Shown: in pieces, positions 125 through 7,043 of the stretch
Numbering within the stretch: the first letter of the stretch is position 1
How the letters are laid out: each line of letters begins with the position of its first letter
DNA from: an alpha proteobacterium SCGC AAA028-C07
GTDB lineage: Bacteria > Pseudomonadota > Alphaproteobacteria > Pelagibacterales > Pelagibacteraceae
Direction: 5' to 3'
NCBI GenBank assembly: GCA_000419465.1
Contig: ATTB01000007.1
Location: 1 to 34,711, forward strand
DNA length: 34,711 nucleotides
The notes under the pieces: model-generated
What the model was told of the DNA's origin: nothing
The model's database searches: none
The model's input: the letters and a program-made list of their open reading frames with translations, nothing else
Made by a program: the position numbers and the translations under genes

Positions 125-1411
125 ATGAAAATTATAAAATTTAATAAAAAAAGTTTTTCAAACGATTTAGATTTTATTTCTCGAAATAGAAAATCTAATT
201 TTTCTAATAAAGCTAATATTGTAAAAAAAATTCTTAAGGACGTTAAAACTAAAGGTGATAACGCTGTTGTTTATTATCAAAAGAAATTTGACAGAAGTTC
301 AGTTTCTAAAAAAAATATTATTTTAAGCAATAAAGAGATTAAGAAAGTTATAAAAAATTTAGATTCTTCAGTAAAAAGTTCTATCAAACTTGCATTTGAC
401 AGAGTTAAAGACTTTCACAGAAGACAATCAATTAAAGGTTATAAATATTTTGATAAATACAAAAATGAATTAGCTTACACAGTTTCTCCATTAAATAGAG
501 TTGGAATATACATTCCAGGAGGAACAGCTAGTTATCCAAGTTCGGTTATTATGAATGCCGTTCCAGCAATTGTTGCTGGTGTAAAAAATATAACTTTATG
601 CATGCCAACCCCAAATAATAAAATTAATGCCGGCGTTGTTTATGCAGCTAAAATATGTGGTGTAAAAAAGATTTATAAAATAGGTGGAGCCCAAGCAATA
701 GGAGCCTTTGCTTACGGAACAAATACCGTTACGAAAGTTGATAAAATTGTAGGACCAGGGAATATTTTTGTAACTACAGCAAAAAAAGAAGTTTTTGGTG
801 AAGTAGGCATAGATATGGTTGCTGGACCTTCTGAAATCACAGTTGTTGCAAATGAGGATAACGATTCAACATTAACAGCTATAGATTTATTATCCCAAGC
901 TGAACACGATGAGTTATCCCAAGCTATATTAGTAACAACAAATTTGAAATTTGGTCTTGAGGTTAAAAGTAAGATTTATAAATTTTTAGATGTTTTGCCT
1001 AGAAAACAGATAGCTAAAAAAGCAATTGATAATAATAGTGCAATTATAGTTTGTAAAAATTTTGCAGAAGTTGTTAGTGTTGTAAACGATATAGCGCCAG
1101 AGCATCTTGAAATTAAGACCAAGAATAATTCAGTTTTGGCAAAACAAATTAAAAATGCTGGATCAATTTTTTTAGGAGAAAATTCGCCAGAAGCCATAGG
1201 AGATTATATGGCAGGACCAAACCATGTTTTACCAACGGCTGGATCAGCAAGGTTTGCTTCAGGGTTATCTGTTTATGATTTTTATAAAAAAACCTCAGTT
1301 ATTAAAATGAGTAAACAAGGTCTTGAAAAGATAGGAAGATCAGCTATACACCTAGCAAATTACGAGGGTTTATTTGCTCACTCTCAATCAATTAGAATTA
1401 GAATTAGTTAA
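125..1411 (+). CDS. hisD: Histidinol dehydrogenase
   Basis: HisD catalyses the last two steps of histidine synthesis, oxidising L-histidinol to histidine with two NAD+. The family signature is clear: VGIYIPGG near residue 125, the GPGN loop near 211, QAEHD near 257-262 supplying the Gln and His zinc ligands, GDYMAGPNH near 359 with the third ligand Asp, and a final His near 419 in FAHSQS. These positions match the usual numbering closely. The ATG at 125 gives 428 residues, the normal family length; an in-frame ATG at 77 would overlap the upstream DUF2948 gene and add an unrelated extension. infA follows two bases after the stop, indicating one transcript. Confidence 0.96.
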
Positions 1412-1413
1412 AT

Positions 1414-1632
1414 ATGGCAAAAGAAGAAATGTTGGAGTTTAAAGGACTGGTAACAGAGTTGTTACCCAATGCTATGTTTAGAGTGAAATTAGAAAATAAT
1501 CATGAAGTATTAGCTCATACAGCTGGAAAAATGAGAAAGAATAGAATTAGAGTTTTAGCTGGTGATGAAGTTATGGTTGAAGTTACACCATATGATTTAA
1601 CTAAAGGCAGGATCATTTTTAGATTTAAATAA
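1414..1632 (+). CDS. infA: Translation initiation factor IF-1
   Basis: The product is 72 residues, the standard IF-1 length, and forms a single S1-type OB fold. Diagnostic stretches are [17 protein letters not shown] near the start, [17 protein letters not shown] in the middle and [12 protein letters not shown] at the end. IF-1 binds the A site of the 30S subunit and helps IF-2 and IF-3 place initiator tRNA. Its last stop base is the first base of the maf start codon (TAATG), which suggests translational coupling. Confidence 0.97.
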
Positions 1633-2210
1633 TGAATGAAACAAAACATAGTTTTGTTTTATCCTCCGCATCCCCAAGAAGAATAGAGCTTCTTAATAAT
1701 ATAAAAATCTTTCCAAAAATAATTTATTCTTCAGATATTAACGAAGATATAAATAGTAAGGAAAGTCCTAAAAAATATTGTATTAGAGTTGCAAAAAATA
1801 AAGCTCTTAAAGCTTTAGAAAAATATCCAGAAGAATTTGTTTTATCGGCAGATACTATAGTTTTTTGTAGTAATAAAATTTTTTTAAAACCAAAAGATAA
1901 AGAAGAAGCTAGAGAGTTTTTAACTTTCTTTTCAGGAAGAAAACATAATGTTTTGACATGTGTATGTTTAGCAAAAAAGAACTCAATCAAAGTTAAAAAA
2001 GTTATAACAAAAGTTACTTTTAAAAGATTAAATAAGCAAGAGATCGACGAATATTTATCAACTAATGAGTGGAAAGATAAAGCAGGGGCTTATGCCATAC
2101 AAGGTTATGCTGAAAAATTTATTAAAAGAATTAACGGTTCGTATTCAAATGTAGTTGGTTTGCCTTTGTTTGAAACTTATAATTTGCTTAATTCACAAGG
2201 TTTAATTTAA
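1632..2210 (+). CDS. maf: Maf-family nucleoside triphosphate pyrophosphatase
   Basis: Maf proteins hydrolyse non-canonical or modified nucleoside triphosphates to monophosphates as a house-cleaning activity. The N-terminal SSASPRRIELL motif (about residues 11-21) and the catalytic Asp in SADTIV (about residue 73) are present, followed by KDKAGAYAIQGYAEKF and a GSYSNVVGLPLFE ending typical of the family. At 192 residues it has the usual length. It overlaps infA by one base. Exact substrate preference (dTTP/UTP or m7GTP subgroup) cannot be decided by eye. Confidence 0.93.
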   Translation: MNETKHSFVLSSASPRRIELLNNIKIFPKIIYSSDINEDINSKESPKKYCIRVAKNKALKALEKYPEEFVLSADTIVFCSNKIFLKPKDKEEAREFLTFFSGRKHNVLTCVCLAKKNSIKVKKVITKVTFKRLNKQEIDEYLSTNEWKDKAGAYAIQGYAEKFIKRINGSYSNVVGLPLFETYNLLNSQGLI

Positions 2211-2257
2211 TATTTTAATTGATTAATAATTTGTTTTGTGAAAAAAACATGCCCAGT

Positions 2258-2333
2258 GGTCTGGTAGCTCAGTTGGTAGAGCAGAGCCCTGAAAAGGCTT
2301 GTGTCGCTGGTTCAATTCCAGCTCAGACCACCA
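2258..2333 (+). tRNA. tRNA-Phe (GAA)
   Basis: A full cloverleaf can be drawn. The acceptor stem is GGTCTGG with TCAGACC (last pair G-U). The D arm contains AGCTCAGTTGGTAGAGC. The anticodon loop CTGAAAA carries anticodon GAA, and the T arm contains GGTTCAATTCC. The discriminator is A and the CCA end is encoded at 2331-2333. It lies 47 bases after maf. Confidence 0.96.
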
Positions 2334-2383
2334 TTTTTTATTTGCAATTTCATTCTCAGATTGATAATCAACCTCTAATTGAA

Positions 2384-2446
2384 ATGATAAAAAAATATAT
2401 ATCTACTCACAGACACCATCCTCATGCTGAGCATGCGCTTAGCTAA
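2384..2446 (+). CDS. Candidate His-rich leader peptide
   Basis: A 20-codon ORF opens at ATG 2384 and ends at TAA 2444-2446. Its second half reads STHRHHPHAEHALS, with five His codons within nine positions, very high for an AT-rich genome where His codons are scarce. It lies 47 bases upstream of tRNA-His, which is followed by hisS, hisZ and hisG. This is the arrangement expected for a ribosome-stalling leader that senses charged tRNA-His. No clear Shine-Dalgarno is visible. A possible promoter (TTGCAA 2342-2347, GATAAT 2363-2368, 15-base spacer) would leave a very short 5' leader. Chance occurrence cannot be excluded. Confidence 0.45.
   Translation: MIKKYISTHRHHPHAEHALS
2423..2443 (+). promoter_or_regulatory. 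Overlapping hairpins at end of the His-rich ORF
   Basis: Two mutually exclusive stems can form. One is CATGCT/AGCATG around a single G (2423-2435). The other is GCTGAGC/GCTTAGC with an ATGC loop (2426-2443, one G-U pair). Both overlap the last His codons, so a stalled ribosome would block them. No T-run follows, so this is not a canonical terminator. A role in attenuation is inferred only from position. Confidence 0.3.
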
Positions 2447-2493
2447 TAGAATTATATATTTAAAAACAAAATAATATTATAAACAAAAAACAT

Positions 2494-2570
2494 GCAGCTG
2501 TAGCTCAGTTGGTTAGAGCGCTGGTTTGTGGAACCAGATGTCGGTGGTTCGAATCCACCCAGCTGTACCA
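2494..2570 (+). tRNA. tRNA-His (GTG), no encoded G-1, A73
   Basis: The anticodon loop TTGTGGA lies between CTGGT and ACCAG, giving anticodon GTG. The T arm is GGTGG-TTCGAAT-CCACC, and CCA is encoded at 2568-2570. The acceptor stem is GCAGCTG with CAGCTGT, so the first pair is G1-U72. The base before G1 is T, so no G-1 is encoded. The discriminator is A73 rather than the C73 usual in bacteria. Loss of G-1 and C73 is a known trait of many alphaproteobacteria and goes with a divergent HisRS, whose gene follows five bases downstream. Confidence 0.95.
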
Positions 2571-2575
2571 AATTA

Positions 2576-4012
2576 ATGAATAAAAAAACTTTTAAACCTA
2601 GCAGTGAATTACCAGCAGGTTTTGTAGATAAACAAGAAGAAGAGTTATTAGCAAGAGATCTTTTAATATCTAATACTAAAAAGGTCATGGCTAAATATGG
2701 CTTTCAATATCTTGAAACTCCTAGTTTCGAGTTTACCGATAGCATTGGTAAATTTTTGCCTGACAAAGATAGACCTTCAGAGGGAGTTTTTTCTTTCGAA
2801 GATGAAAAAAAATGGCTCTCGTTACGATACGATTTAACAGCACCATTAGCCAGATATGCAGCTAAAAACTTTAACAATTTACCAAGACCTTTTAAAAGGT
2901 ATCAACTAGGAACAGTTTGGAGAAATGAAAAACCAGGTCCCGGAAGATTTAGAGAGTTTTTGCAGTTTGATGCGGATTACATAGGAACAAGTAATCTATT
3001 TGCTGATGCAGAGTTATGCTGCTTAATTTCAGAGATTCTAAGTAGCTGCGGTTTAACAAAAGAAGAATTTATAATTAAAATATCTAATCGTAAATTAACA
3101 AAAGGATTATTAGAAAAGTTAAAAATCAATGACGAAAATAAACAATCAATAGTACTAAGAGCTATTGATAAACTAGATAGAGTTGGGATAGAGGGCGTTC
3201 AATATCTTTTAGGAAAAGGTAGAAAAGATAAATCTGGAGATTTTACTAAAGGAGCCGAATTAGACGAATCACAGATTAATGAAATTATTAATTTTTTAAG
3301 TATTAAAGATCTTTCAGATAATAATTTTGAAAAAATAGAAAAGATTGCTGGAGACAATCAAACTATATTAGATGGAGTAAATGAACTTATTTTAATCAAG
3401 AAATATTTTTTATTATTAAAATTTGATAATTTTATCTTTGACCCTACTGTTGTTAGAGGACTTGAATATTACACGGGCCCTATTTTTGAGGCCAATCTTA
3501 CATTTAACGTTAAAAACAACAAAGGGGAAAAGATTGAATTTGGTTCAATAGGGGGTGGAGGAAGATATGATGATCTTGTAAAACGTTTTAATAATCAAGA
3601 TTGCCCCTCAACCGGTATTTCAGTTGGTCTTGACCGTTTAATTTATGCCATTCTTCAAAAAAATAAAATTAAAGTAGAAAAAGAAACACCAATTTTAATA
3701 TGCGTTTTTGATGAAAAATACATGGATTATTATGTGAAGATTTTAAATTTATTAAGAACAAAAAATATTAGCGCTGAGATTTATTCAGGAAGTGCCAATA
3801 TAAAATCACAACTAAAGTATGCTGACAAAAGAGGATGCAATTACGTCATTTTATGTGGCGATGATGAGGTAAGTAAGAATTTAGTAACAATTAAAAATTT
3901 AGAAATCGGCAAGCAAATGTCCGATTCTCTAAAAAATAGAGATGATTGGAAAGAGTCTTCGGGATCTCAAAAAACAGTAGCTTTAAATCAACTTTTAAAT
4001 GAGATTAAATAA
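2576..4012 (+). CDS. hisS: Histidyl-tRNA synthetase
   Basis: A class II synthetase that charges tRNA-His. Motif 2 is present near residue 114 as VWRNEKPGPGRFREF followed by LQFDADYIG, and the HisRS signature RGLEYYTG lies near residue 293. A C-terminal anticodon-binding domain occupies roughly residues 375-478. The RNEKPGPGR form of motif 2 resembles the alphaproteobacterial HisRS type that accepts tRNA-His without G-1, rather than the common RxERPQ form. The ATG at 2576 is chosen because the longer frame would start inside tRNA-His; it gives 478 residues. The stop overlaps the hisZ ATG by one base. Confidence 0.96.
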   Translation: MNKKTFKPSSELPAGFVDKQEEELLARDLLISNTKKVMAKYGFQYLETPSFEFTDSIGKFLPDKDRPSEGVFSFEDEKKWLSLRYDLTAPLARYAAKNFNNLPRPFKRYQLGTVWRNEKPGPGRFREFLQFDADYIGTSNLFADAELCCLISEILSSCGLTKEEFIIKISNRKLTKGLLEKLKINDENKQSIVLRAIDKLDRVGIEGVQYLLGKGRKDKSGDFTKGAELDESQINEIINFLSIKDLSDNNFEKIEKIAGDNQTILDGVNELILIKKYFLLLKFDNFIFDPTVVRGLEYYTGPIFEANLTFNVKNNKGEKIEFGSIGGGGRYDDLVKRFNNQDCPSTGISVGLDRLIYAILQKNKIKVEKETPILICVFDEKYMDYYVKILNLLRTKNISAEIYSGSANIKSQLKYADKRGCNYVILCGDDEVSKNLVTIKNLEIGKQMSDSLKNRDDWKESSGSQKTVALNQLLNEIK

Positions 4013-5100
4013 TGAAACAGGCTCTAGAAAATAAGAGATTAAAAGAAGATCTTTCTAAAAAAATATTAAGTAATTTTAAAAAAAATAAATTTAATTTTAC
4101 AGATTTGGATCTCTTGATTGATACTAGTTTGTTAACAGAGCGATCAGGAGAGCAATTTAAAAAATTTACACTAACTTATAAAGATTTATTTGGAAAAGAA
4201 ATTAGTTTGCGTCCTGATTTAACAGTTTCAACAGCATTAAAATATATTCAAGAAAAAAAGAATAAAGAAGAAAAGTATTGTTACTATGGAAGTGCTTATA
4301 GATTAGATAAAGAAGGAGATTTAAAAGTTTTTGATCAGATAGGCTGCGAAATTATTAATTCTAATAACAATAAATCAGAGAATATTTTAATTAATTCTAT
4401 ATTAGAACCATTAAAAAAAATTAAGAAATTAGAAGTTGTTTTAGGAGACGTTGGATTATTTAAAATTTTAGTAGAGTCTTTAGAGCTTCCAGCTAGATGG
4501 AAATTAAGATTAGTAAAAAATTTTTCTAGAAGAGAATATTTTGAAGATATGTTGAAAAGATTAGAGACAAATTATGATCTAGATCAACAAGCAATTAAAT
4601 TAGATACAAAAAGACTTGAAGATTTAGAAAAACTAAATCCAAATAGCATAATTGGAGGAAGAACAGTTTCTGAGATTGTTAAACGTTTTAATAAAAAAAT
4701 TAAAGATCCAAGAGACAATTATAAAGGAAAAAAGAATGTTAAAATTATTAGAGATTTTTTAAATATTAATAGTTCAATTCAGAAAGCTGAAAGTGCAATT
4801 TTGTCTTTCTTTTCAAAAAATAAATTAAGCAATTTATCTATTAAGAATTATTTAAGAAAAATTAATAGAATAAATAAAGAAATAGGAAAAAAATATTCTA
4901 TTAATTTTAAAACTAATTTTGGAAGAAATACTGATTATTATACCGGCGTAGTTTTTTTAGCTTCCGTAAAAAAGAATTCTAAAATTATCGAATTAGCAAG
5001 AGGTGGTGAATATAACGGTTTACTTAGAACTCTTGGTTATAAGAAGGATATATCAGCTATTGGTGGTGCAATTAATTTAAACGAATTAATAAATTTATAA
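4012..5100 (+). CDS. hisZ: ATP phosphoribosyltransferase regulatory subunit HisZ
   Basis: HisZ is a HisRS-like paralogue without aminoacylation activity that forms an octamer with short HisG and confers histidine feedback control. Class II core features remain: a motif-2-like RPDLTVSTALKYIQ region near residue 65 and TDYYTGVVFLA near residue 305, matching the RGLDYYTG region of HisRS in degenerate form. Length is 362 residues, and there is no anticodon-binding domain. It sits between hisS (one-base overlap) and the short hisG, the expected partner, with four bases between. Confidence 0.92.
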   Translation: MKQALENKRLKEDLSKKILSNFKKNKFNFTDLDLLIDTSLLTERSGEQFKKFTLTYKDLFGKEISLRPDLTVSTALKYIQEKKNKEEKYCYYGSAYRLDKEGDLKVFDQIGCEIINSNNNKSENILINSILEPLKKIKKLEVVLGDVGLFKILVESLELPARWKLRLVKNFSRREYFEDMLKRLETNYDLDQQAIKLDTKRLEDLEKLNPNSIIGGRTVSEIVKRFNKKIKDPRDNYKGKKNVKIIRDFLNINSSIQKAESAILSFFSKNKLSNLSIKNYLRKINRINKEIGKKYSINFKTNFGRNTDYYTGVVFLASVKKNSKIIELARGGEYNGLLRTLGYKKDISAIGGAINLNELINL

Positions 5101-5104
5101 AATT

Positions 5105-5773
5105 ATGTCCAAAATAAAAATAGGATTACCTAGCAAAGGAAGATTAAAAGATGAATCTTTAGCTTTTTTAAAAAGTAAGAATTTAGAGGTGGTAAATTCT
5201 TTTGGAGAAAGAAATTATTTTTTTAACATTAAAAATAATAACGAAATAGATGGAATTTTTTTACACGCTAGAGAAATAATTGAAAGAATTAATGACGGTA
5301 CTTTAGATATTGGTATTTCAGGGCTAGATCTACTTAAGGAGTTGCCAGAGGTTTATTCAAAAAATGTTAGAATTTTTAAAAAACTTAATTTTGGTTTTGC
5401 TGATTTAGTAGTTGCGATACCAAAAGATTGGTTAGATGTTCAGAATATGGCTGACTTAGAAGAAGTAAGTTTTGAATTTAGAGAAAAATATGGACGTCGA
5501 ATGCGTGTTGCAACAAAATATCCAAATTTGACTGAATCTTTCTTTTTATCAAAGGGTGTAAGTCAGTTTCGTGTTGTTCCAAGTTTAGGAGCAACGGAGT
5601 CTTATCCGTTTACCGGCTCCTCAGAATTGATCACTGATATAACATCTACAGGTTCAACTTTGAAAGCCAATAATCTAAGGATTATAAATGACGGAATTAT
5701 ATTAAAAAGTTCTGCCTGTATTTTTGTTTCTAAAAAAATTGAAAAAAAAAAGTTTTTAAATCTTTTAAAATAG
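5105..5773 (+). CDS. hisG: ATP phosphoribosyltransferase, short form
   Basis: HisG joins ATP and PRPP to make phosphoribosyl-ATP, the first and committed step of histidine synthesis. It opens with KIGLPSKGRLKDES, and the PRPP-binding loop is seen as DITSTGSTLKAN near residue 177. At 222 residues it is the short HisG form, which lacks the C-terminal regulatory domain and needs HisZ, encoded just upstream. It ends the + strand his cluster and is followed at once by a strong intrinsic terminator. Confidence 0.95.
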   Translation: MSKIKIGLPSKGRLKDESLAFLKSKNLEVVNSFGERNYFFNIKNNNEIDGIFLHAREIIERINDGTLDIGISGLDLLKELPEVYSKNVRIFKKLNFGFADLVVAIPKDWLDVQNMADLEEVSFEFREKYGRRMRVATKYPNLTESFFLSKGVSQFRVVPSLGATESYPFTGSSELITDITSTGSTLKANNLRIINDGIILKSSACIFVSKKIEKKKFLNLLK

Positions 5774-5780
5774 TCAAAAA

Positions 5781-5808
5781 AAAACCCCGGATGTTAGTCC
5801 GGGGTTTT
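5781..5808 (+). terminator. Intrinsic terminator after hisG
   Basis: An 11-bp stem (AAAACCCCGGA with TCCGGGGTTTT, loop TGTTAG) lies 8 bases after the hisG stop. It has A-rich sequence on one side and T-rich sequence on the other, so it could work on both strands. Before the element inserted it probably also served groEL, which would then have ended at 5846. Confidence 0.9.
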
Positions 5809-5845
5809 GAATTTTTTCTAGAAAGTTTTACTAGAGAGGATGGAA

Positions 5846-5859
5846 TTACATTCCCATTC
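5846..5859 (+). repeat. Left attachment core (attL)
   Basis: TTACATTCCCATTC here matches the last 14 bases of groEL at the other end perfectly. In this copy the reading frame is not continued: the bases after 5859 do not encode the Gly-Met tail of GroEL. The sequence between the hisG terminator and this copy is therefore likely the original groEL 3' untranslated region. Confidence 0.8.
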
Positions 5860-5898
5860 TCTTAAAAATAATGGTTGATATTACTATGTTTTTAAAAA

Positions 5899-5963
5899 AC
5901 TTCTTTGAATACTTCTTTGAGCGGTGACATCTTAGGTCAAACCACGAAAGATGACTTCTTTGA
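5899..5963 (+). repeat. Left cluster of ACTTCTTTGA repeats (integrase arm sites)
   Basis: Exact copies of the decamer lie at 5899-5908, 5911-5920 and 5954-5963, all on the same strand. The same decamer occurs four times near the right end. Repeats of one short motif 40-120 bases inside both cores are what arm-type binding sites of a phage-like tyrosine integrase look like. Between copies two and three lies an imperfect dyad (GGTGAC / GTCAAACC, 5923-5944) that could bind an accessory factor. Confidence 0.6.
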
Positions 5964-6320
5964 ACTTTACTCCCCAACCCTCTAAAACAATTTCAGTGTT
6001 CATTGGCGTAGACTAAAATACTTCCAGCGTAGAAAATCAAGTTATGTAAAGAAACATACGTACCAGCGTAGGATTTAATTTAATTGAATTTTAATAGTGT
6101 GTGTTGATGTGTTCTTAAACTTCAAGTTATCGTTAAAAACTTTTTATGTTTCCAGACGCTTCAAGAATTATAAATAAAGGTGAAGATATTTAAAGATAAT
6201 ATTTTTACTTCAAAATGCTCACGGTAATTGAAGTCAATTAAACATAAACATATTTCAATATAGGAATAGGTTTGTTTGCTTTTTGAGTGAGTACAAAGGC
6301 AATTAATATGAAAGGGTATT
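5964..6320 (+). other. Non-coding left-end region with iteron-like repeats
   Basis: No convincing gene is seen here. CCAGCGTAG occurs at 6024-6032 and 6063-6071, with a related TTGGCGTAGA at 6003-6012; the GCGTAG cores are 21 and 39 bases apart. A small inverted repeat TATGT-AAAGAA-ACATA (about 6043-6058) lies between. The region precedes a gene pair whose second member looks like a HUH replication endonuclease, so it is a candidate replication origin or operator. AAGGG at about 6312-6316 is the ribosome binding site of the gene at 6321. Confidence 0.4.
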
Positions 6321-7043
6321 ATGACGAATAATATCAAGACCTTTAAAGAGTTGAAGAAACTATTTAAAGATACAAAATGGGAAACAATTAAGTTTACCAA
6401 AGATGAGTTAACAAGGCAGTTCAAAGAACATATGGTTGAACACGATTTTATCCAACCAGATACAGCACTTGATGAGTTTTATTTAAACAAACATAGACTT
6501 GACCAGAGAATAGATAAAAAAACTCAGTCAGATGTTTATAGATTGAGGTTACTGGCAATAAAAGACCGTTACAACAGTTTACATAGAAACAAACCGAAAG
6601 CAGTTGAAAACTCAAAATCATTCACAGTCTACGAAGTAGTGGGAAGCAACCAAAGGTGGAGTAAGTTTGTTCCAACAGAAACAAAGTTTTGGGTGGACAA
6701 TTATACCGACCAACTTCTTTATGTAGATTATAAAAGAGATGATGTTTGGTTTAATAATTTATTCAGAAATAAAATAGATAATTCAGTTTCAAATAACCAC
6801 GATGAAATACACACAGAAAAAACATTTCATCTTGCTTATGAACAAAGAACTTACAAAATAGTTACCGCTAAAGGTTTGGATTACTCAGATGCTATGAAAA
6901 AGGCAGAAAAAGATAATCCGGAACTGGAATGGAAACCTGGAAGACCAAATAAAAAATGGGAACATTTATACCAAGTTAAAGTAGATAAATTGCCAGAAGG
7001 TGATTTTGATATGAATGACTTGTCAACATCTTCTAGGTACTAA
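6321..7043 (+). CDS. Unknown protein, first gene of the left module
   Basis: I do not recognise this 240-residue protein. The frame is preceded by a good AAGGG ribosome binding site and followed five bases later by the probable HUH gene, so it is very likely real and cotranscribed. It is charged and rich in Trp, Tyr and Lys, with no signal peptide or membrane segment. The N-terminal third is helical with many Lys and Asp residues. The middle contains FTVYEVVGSNQRWSKFVP, and the C-terminal third (YKIVTAKGLDYSDAMKKAEK) looks like a small alpha/beta unit. Its place beside the repeats and the HUH gene suggests a role in replication or its control. Confidence 0.75.
   Translation: MTNNIKTFKELKKLFKDTKWETIKFTKDELTRQFKEHMVEHDFIQPDTALDEFYLNKHRLDQRIDKKTQSDVYRLRLLAIKDRYNSLHRNKPKAVENSKSFTVYEVVGSNQRWSKFVPTETKFWVDNYTDQLLYVDYKRDDVWFNNLFRNKIDNSVSNNHDEIHTEKTFHLAYEQRTYKIVTAKGLDYSDAMKKAEKDNPELEWKPGRPNKKWEHLYQVKVDKLPEGDFDMNDLSTSSRY

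Follow-up and report, generated by a model that had tools for sequence, protein, structure and literature searches.

A conserved leader ORF with clustered histidine codons precedes hisS in SAR11 bacteria and is likely to sense histidine

In the enterobacterial his leader, the position of the ribosome is the sensor (PMC9413887). In this his operon leader (Rfam His_leader), a short ORF whose His codons are clustered stands before histidine genes, a layout shared by the SAR11 locus described here, but the SAR11 element comes without a U-run terminator or conserved antiterminator, and tRNA-His and hisS are the first genes under its putative control. In Bacillus, too, His-codon leaders stand before members of the hisS/hisZ family (upstream of hisS*/hisZ; PMC2965389); these differ in belonging to Firmicutes and in having been found via terminators, and no tRNA gene is mentioned in the unit. 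For the proline leader mgtL of Salmonella, Rho-dependent termination has been reported (PMC5021804): a stem-loop is favoured when the ribosome stalls at the cognate codons, the RNA becomes accessible to Rho once the ORF has been translated in full, and no intrinsic terminator is needed. This is the behaviour that we propose below for SAR11, although mgtL regulates a magnesium transporter and the part of Rho in SAR11 is drawn by analogy. An alphaproteobacterial leaderless leader ORF at the very start of its transcript is represented by Sinorhizobium trpL/peTrpL (PMC10117765), which is a Trp system with the tryptophan attenuator sRNA rnTrpL and not a histidine system. A cmscan search of positions 1400-6500 at E values up to 1 matched neither the Rfam his leader nor the T-box and placed the element in no Rfam family.

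The window, that is the whole stretch of 34,711 nucleotides analysed, corresponds to contig C7 in a draft genome of 847 kb. Close relatives of this genome are Ca. Fonsibacter and SCGC AAA028-D10, which we take to be a member of the LD12 group, and the window very probably comes from a freshwater SAR11 bacterium. The locus lies downstream of hisD, infA and maf, with tRNA-Phe (2258-2333) as the upstream neighbour of the leader. On the forward strand follow the leader ORF (2384-2446), tRNA-His with anticodon GTG (2494-2570), hisS encoding histidine--tRNA ligase (2576-4012; TIGR00442, 358.6 bits, over cut-off), hisZ encoding the ATP phosphoribosyltransferase regulatory subunit (4012-5100) and hisG encoding ATP phosphoribosyltransferase (5105-5773; TIGR00070, over cut-off). 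The best match of hisZ was PRK12295.1-6 (1e-70, below its cut-off), with TIGR00443 (1e-27) as a second model match, and hisS was followed by hisZ at 94 of 97 loci. The original prediction had placed a 20-codon ORF with five His in nine codons directly ahead of tRNA-His-hisS-hisZ-hisG. Translation of 2384-2446 confirmed the ORF, MIKKYISTHRHHPHAEHALS, which runs from ATG 2384 to TAA 2446 with its five His codons within codons 9-17 (2408-2434), and tRNA calls and protein models bore out its position; tRNA-His does lie between leader and hisS, within the unit predicted to be controlled.

Of 20,000 dinucleotide-shuffled versions of the 160-nt spacer, only 4 contained at least five His in nine codons. 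Nevertheless, 400 kb of a relative held 19 short ORFs with at least four His in nine codons (both strands, leader included), so that the ORF by itself is weak evidence; it is position and conservation that turn it into strong evidence for a leader. A crude scan of 400 kb of a relative found no leaders for other amino acids; it also missed the His leader, because a longer overlapping frame is present there.

To look at conservation, we searched 397 family genomes and 118 genomes of the order for hisS and inspected the regions upstream of it. A pattern-based collection, whose patterns included the hairpin P2 described below, gave 129 distinct SAR11 leaders with an ORF upstream of tRNA-His-hisS. 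Their peptides vary and differ widely, as in THRHHPHAEHALS, HTHHHTHAKHGLGN, SHSHRMHARLLLS, AKHHFAHARLLLS, THRHHFHAGCKLAI and VHSHFHAG, with two to six His retained. Over the collection CAT (262) and CAC (184) interchange, and His recurs at fixed places before P2, namely at -3 in 119 leaders, at -12 in 103 and at -18 in 84. Fixed His places and codon interchange despite variable peptides indicate selection on the amino acid, and comparison of the spacer across SAR11, the check proposed with the original prediction, thus gave conserved His codons in variable surroundings. Some leaders of genus g4 have only two His, and some carry several Thr or Arg codons instead. The leader was found at all 29 named SAR11 loci. 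A covariance model of the element (54 positions) gave exactly one match per genome in 53 of 58 SAR11 family genomes; where the place of hisS was also listed for a genome, the match lay at a similar distance before it. None of 56 other alphaproteobacteria matched.

In the sister SAR11 family no tRNA-His is present at this place, yet His leaders occur about 130 nt ahead of hisS (MFKFKHHHYHI*, MIVYTHHHIHI*, MLIIKHHHSHI* and related peptides), and a hairpin and a conserved ACCCC run come after each of them. On comparative grounds, the His leader is a conserved element and not a product of chance. The run of the sister family (L111-L130), ACCCC(C/T), lies apparently unpaired about 40 nt past the leader stop and is striking in AT-rich DNA; it is possibly a site for a protein or for Rho. 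Pairing of this run with the hisS ribosome-binding site was considered and rejected, being inconsistent between members. When upstream regions of hisS from other alphaproteobacteria were subjected to a loose His-ORF test, 1 of 50 matched in a first sample and 9 of 51 in a second; four of these nine are clear independent leaders in Caulobacterales (L270:956-1033, L289, L285 and L292). These resemble the SAR11 leaders in standing upstream of hisS with no U run seen, but have another peptide, of the MTRxxHHHGHHH type (MTRFAHHHGHHHPTCLRGIGRGRSA and similar), other hairpins and no tRNA-His. Downstream of them a GAGCCCC/GGGGCTC hairpin is accompanied by a second, competing CCCCATCCG copy, and another small ORF lies between the leader hairpins and hisS, just before hisS.

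The ORF ends in hairpin P2 (GCTGAGC-ATGC-GCTTAGC, 2426-2443, forward strand), which abuts the stop codon. In an alignment of 28 sequences 97.9% of the P2 cells were paired, five of the seven pairs had changes on both sides, and covariation reached 0.533, as compared with 0.321 (sd 0.025) in shuffles and at most 0.133 on sliding. The 849 of 849 P2 pairs in the 129-leader collection are circular, since that collection was built with P2 patterns; a free hairpin search over part of the leader list recovered the same P2 hairpins free of this bias. P2 is therefore, as judged from covariation, a 7-bp hairpin at the ORF end conserved across the family. Overlapping alternative hairpins had also been predicted at this place. 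Both exist in the window, but the second (CATGC-TGA-GCATG, 2423-2435, forward strand) is conserved only in g1, the genus of the window, and g9, and CATGC/GCATG was rejected as a general switch. A long-range helix, P1, pairs the first codons (2393-2405; fold z = -2.9) with sequence behind the stop (2447-2461), both on the forward strand. In duplex comparisons P1 was on average better in energy than shuffles of its own sequence in all three main P2 types, and its complementarity exceeded that of shuffles in most subgroups but not in every one; it was not seen in several subgroups of the family. A shared covarying structure beyond P2, sought with RNAalifold, was rejected, P1 appearing in some groups only. 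In genera g2, g3 and g5 alone, the His codons lie in a short local hairpin (CATTCT-CAC-AGAATG, CACTCT-CAC-AGAGTG or GCAAAACACCATTTTGC); L036, L042, L100 and others of g2 and g5 show matched changes in it, CACACT-CAC-AGTGTG being found there beside the first two forms.

A promoter (TTGCAA, 15 nt, GATAAT; 2342-2368, forward strand) was predicted ahead of the leader in a scan of the 129 leaders. In most of them the distance from TTG to the ATG is about 34-39 nt, in the window it is 42 nt, and 39% of real upstream regions against 7% of shuffled ones scored at least 9. The promoter-like signal persists where a cold-shock-like gene replaces tRNA-Phe as the upstream gene. The transcript probably begins with the leader, and since the promoter-like TTG sits about 35 nt before the ATG in nearly all cases, the leader ORF is probably leaderless or nearly so.

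From the His codons and their conservation, it is very likely that the ORF encodes a His-sensing leader peptide. We also think it probable, with rather less confidence, that this peptide monitors how far tRNA-His is charged and regulates tRNA-His-hisS-hisZ-hisG in cis through a non-intrinsic readout, perhaps Rho. Transcription is predicted to start a few nt before ATG 2384, and a ribosome would load at once. When charged tRNA-His is scarce, it would stall at the first of the His codons, which lie 12-18 nt ahead of P2. Given the size of the ribosome footprint, an A site at this distance puts the edge of the ribosome near the foot of P2, which can stay folded ahead while the leader RNA would be covered. 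With plentiful charged tRNA-His the ribosome would reach the stop at the end of P2 and then leave. A ribosome at the stop covers P2, and hence stalling favours P2, while a ribosome that finishes translation opens P2 and afterwards leaves the leader clear. Its departure would expose the C-rich, G-poor leader, the His codons themselves, and the exposed RNA would then be terminated ahead of tRNA-His, with Rho as the likeliest agent, as for mgtL in Salmonella. Helix P1 would close the region of the leader start against re-initiation. Translation, stalling, the direction of the response, the action of Rho and the function of P1 are all steps that we infer.

Rho is proposed tentatively as the readout, by analogy with mgtL. 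A rho gene was found over cut-off in the window's own genome. Within the leader, C exceeds G by nine in a stretch of 25 nt, a surplus greater than in 99.5% of the window, but His codons force such richness and it is therefore not independent evidence for Rho. Because tRNA-His is excised by processing, control from upstream must act on transcription or on the precursor. Were the model true throughout the order, tRNA-His, its synthetase and the first histidine enzyme would rise together as charging falls. We put an order-wide SAR11 sensor, composed of a leaderless or near-leaderless leader peptide, no intrinsic terminator and a transcript beginning with the cognate tRNA gene, at slightly under an even chance. 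SAR11 are among the most abundant bacteria, and a conserved amino-acid sensor in them would be a concrete case of control at the RNA level. According to PMC13198564 they are thought to rely on few transcription factors. With the sensed tRNA inside the regulated unit and no intrinsic terminator, the readout becomes a testable question. No previous report of a SAR11 His leader was found in the literature searched; a mention elsewhere, for instance in comparative surveys of proteobacterial attenuators, may exist. A previous screen for SAR11 RNAs (PMC2704228) could not list the leader, because its table had been stripped of intergenic regions that contain tRNAs.

A stall could instead alter decay or maturation, the leader and the AU-rich spacer guiding cleavage by RNases and thereby setting how much tRNA-His and hisS message is produced. 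The spacer between leader stop and tRNA-His (2447-2493, forward strand), which is AT-rich and contains TAATAT at 2472-2477, is identical at 47 of 47 positions in nine genomes of the genus, as compared with 234 of 300 (78%) at the start of hisS, and this invariance needs an explanation beyond the leader peptide. In addition, the hisS message starts 4-8 nt past the tRNA (in the window the ATG lies 5 nt 3' of the tRNA-His end), so that processing would leave it nearly leaderless. As leaders of the sister family occur with no tRNA-His beside them, the element does not need a tRNA, and we hold this explanation to be unlikely.

The original prediction had seen in this locus the logic of classic attenuation. 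One part of it stood: clustered His codons at the 5' end of a histidine operon made of tRNA-His-hisS-hisZ-hisG are found here, with the layout of the enterobacterial his leader. The terminator/antiterminator switch did not stand. In such a switch P1 with P2, or P2 alone, would terminate transcription and a stalled ribosome would favour the antiterminator, and P2 is indeed the only GC-rich hairpin. A scan of the window, however, found no intrinsic terminator, at least five T within 20 nt of P2 occurred in only 3 of 122 leaders, and over the 45 nt that follow P2 the T runs of 117 of the 122 reached three or four at most; on these results P2 and P1 were rejected as intrinsic terminators and the usual 3:4 terminator is absent. 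A competing, conserved alternative pairing was not found either. Hairpins followed by T runs are nevertheless used at some other gene ends in SAR11, as seen in a close relative. A classic his-type attenuator is thus improbable, and the element is one that works like an amino-acid leader but lacks the terminator of classical attenuators. The divergent leader L035 (G059:C19), MLKKALFHIIPHHGF, comes closest to a classical terminator and speaks for the classic reading, its hairpin ACGGCT-TTT-AGCCGT being followed about 8-11 nt later by eight T.

A separate promoter in the spacer could also serve tRNA-His and hisS, in which case the leader would be a small gene of its own or a minor start with a regulatory role. 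TA[AG]NATAA is present in the spacer of 109 of 122 leaders at a promoter-like distance before tRNA-His, and TANNATAAA, conserved immediately ahead of tRNA-His, might act as a weak internal promoter and so bypass the leader. TTG, which the leader's own promoter has, is missing from 120 of the 122 spacers and occurs in only 2, so that an internal promoter is possible but without a normal -35; the distance from P2 to tRNA-His is also nearly fixed, with no terminator between. We give little credence to such a separate unit, and continue to favour a leader peptide acting in cis on the whole unit. A chance His-rich ORF in an AT-rich spacer, for which short His-rich ORFs elsewhere in the genome might speak, is refuted by the 129 leaders with synonymous His exchange and by the equal placement in the sister family, and is virtually impossible.

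The tRNA-His genes showed features of their own. In the window, tRNA-His (2494-2570) has no encoded G at -1, T2493 preceding G1, and carries A73; tRNA-His without an encoded G-1 occurs in some alphaproteobacteria. In some g4 genomes (L082:1408-1481; also L077, L083, L133, L137, L139 and L147) tRNA-His was missed by ARAGORN. Its T loop there is AGCGTAA and not of the TTC type, it still scored 50.6 bits against Rfam tRNA, and it adjoins a divergent HisRS (about 47% identical).
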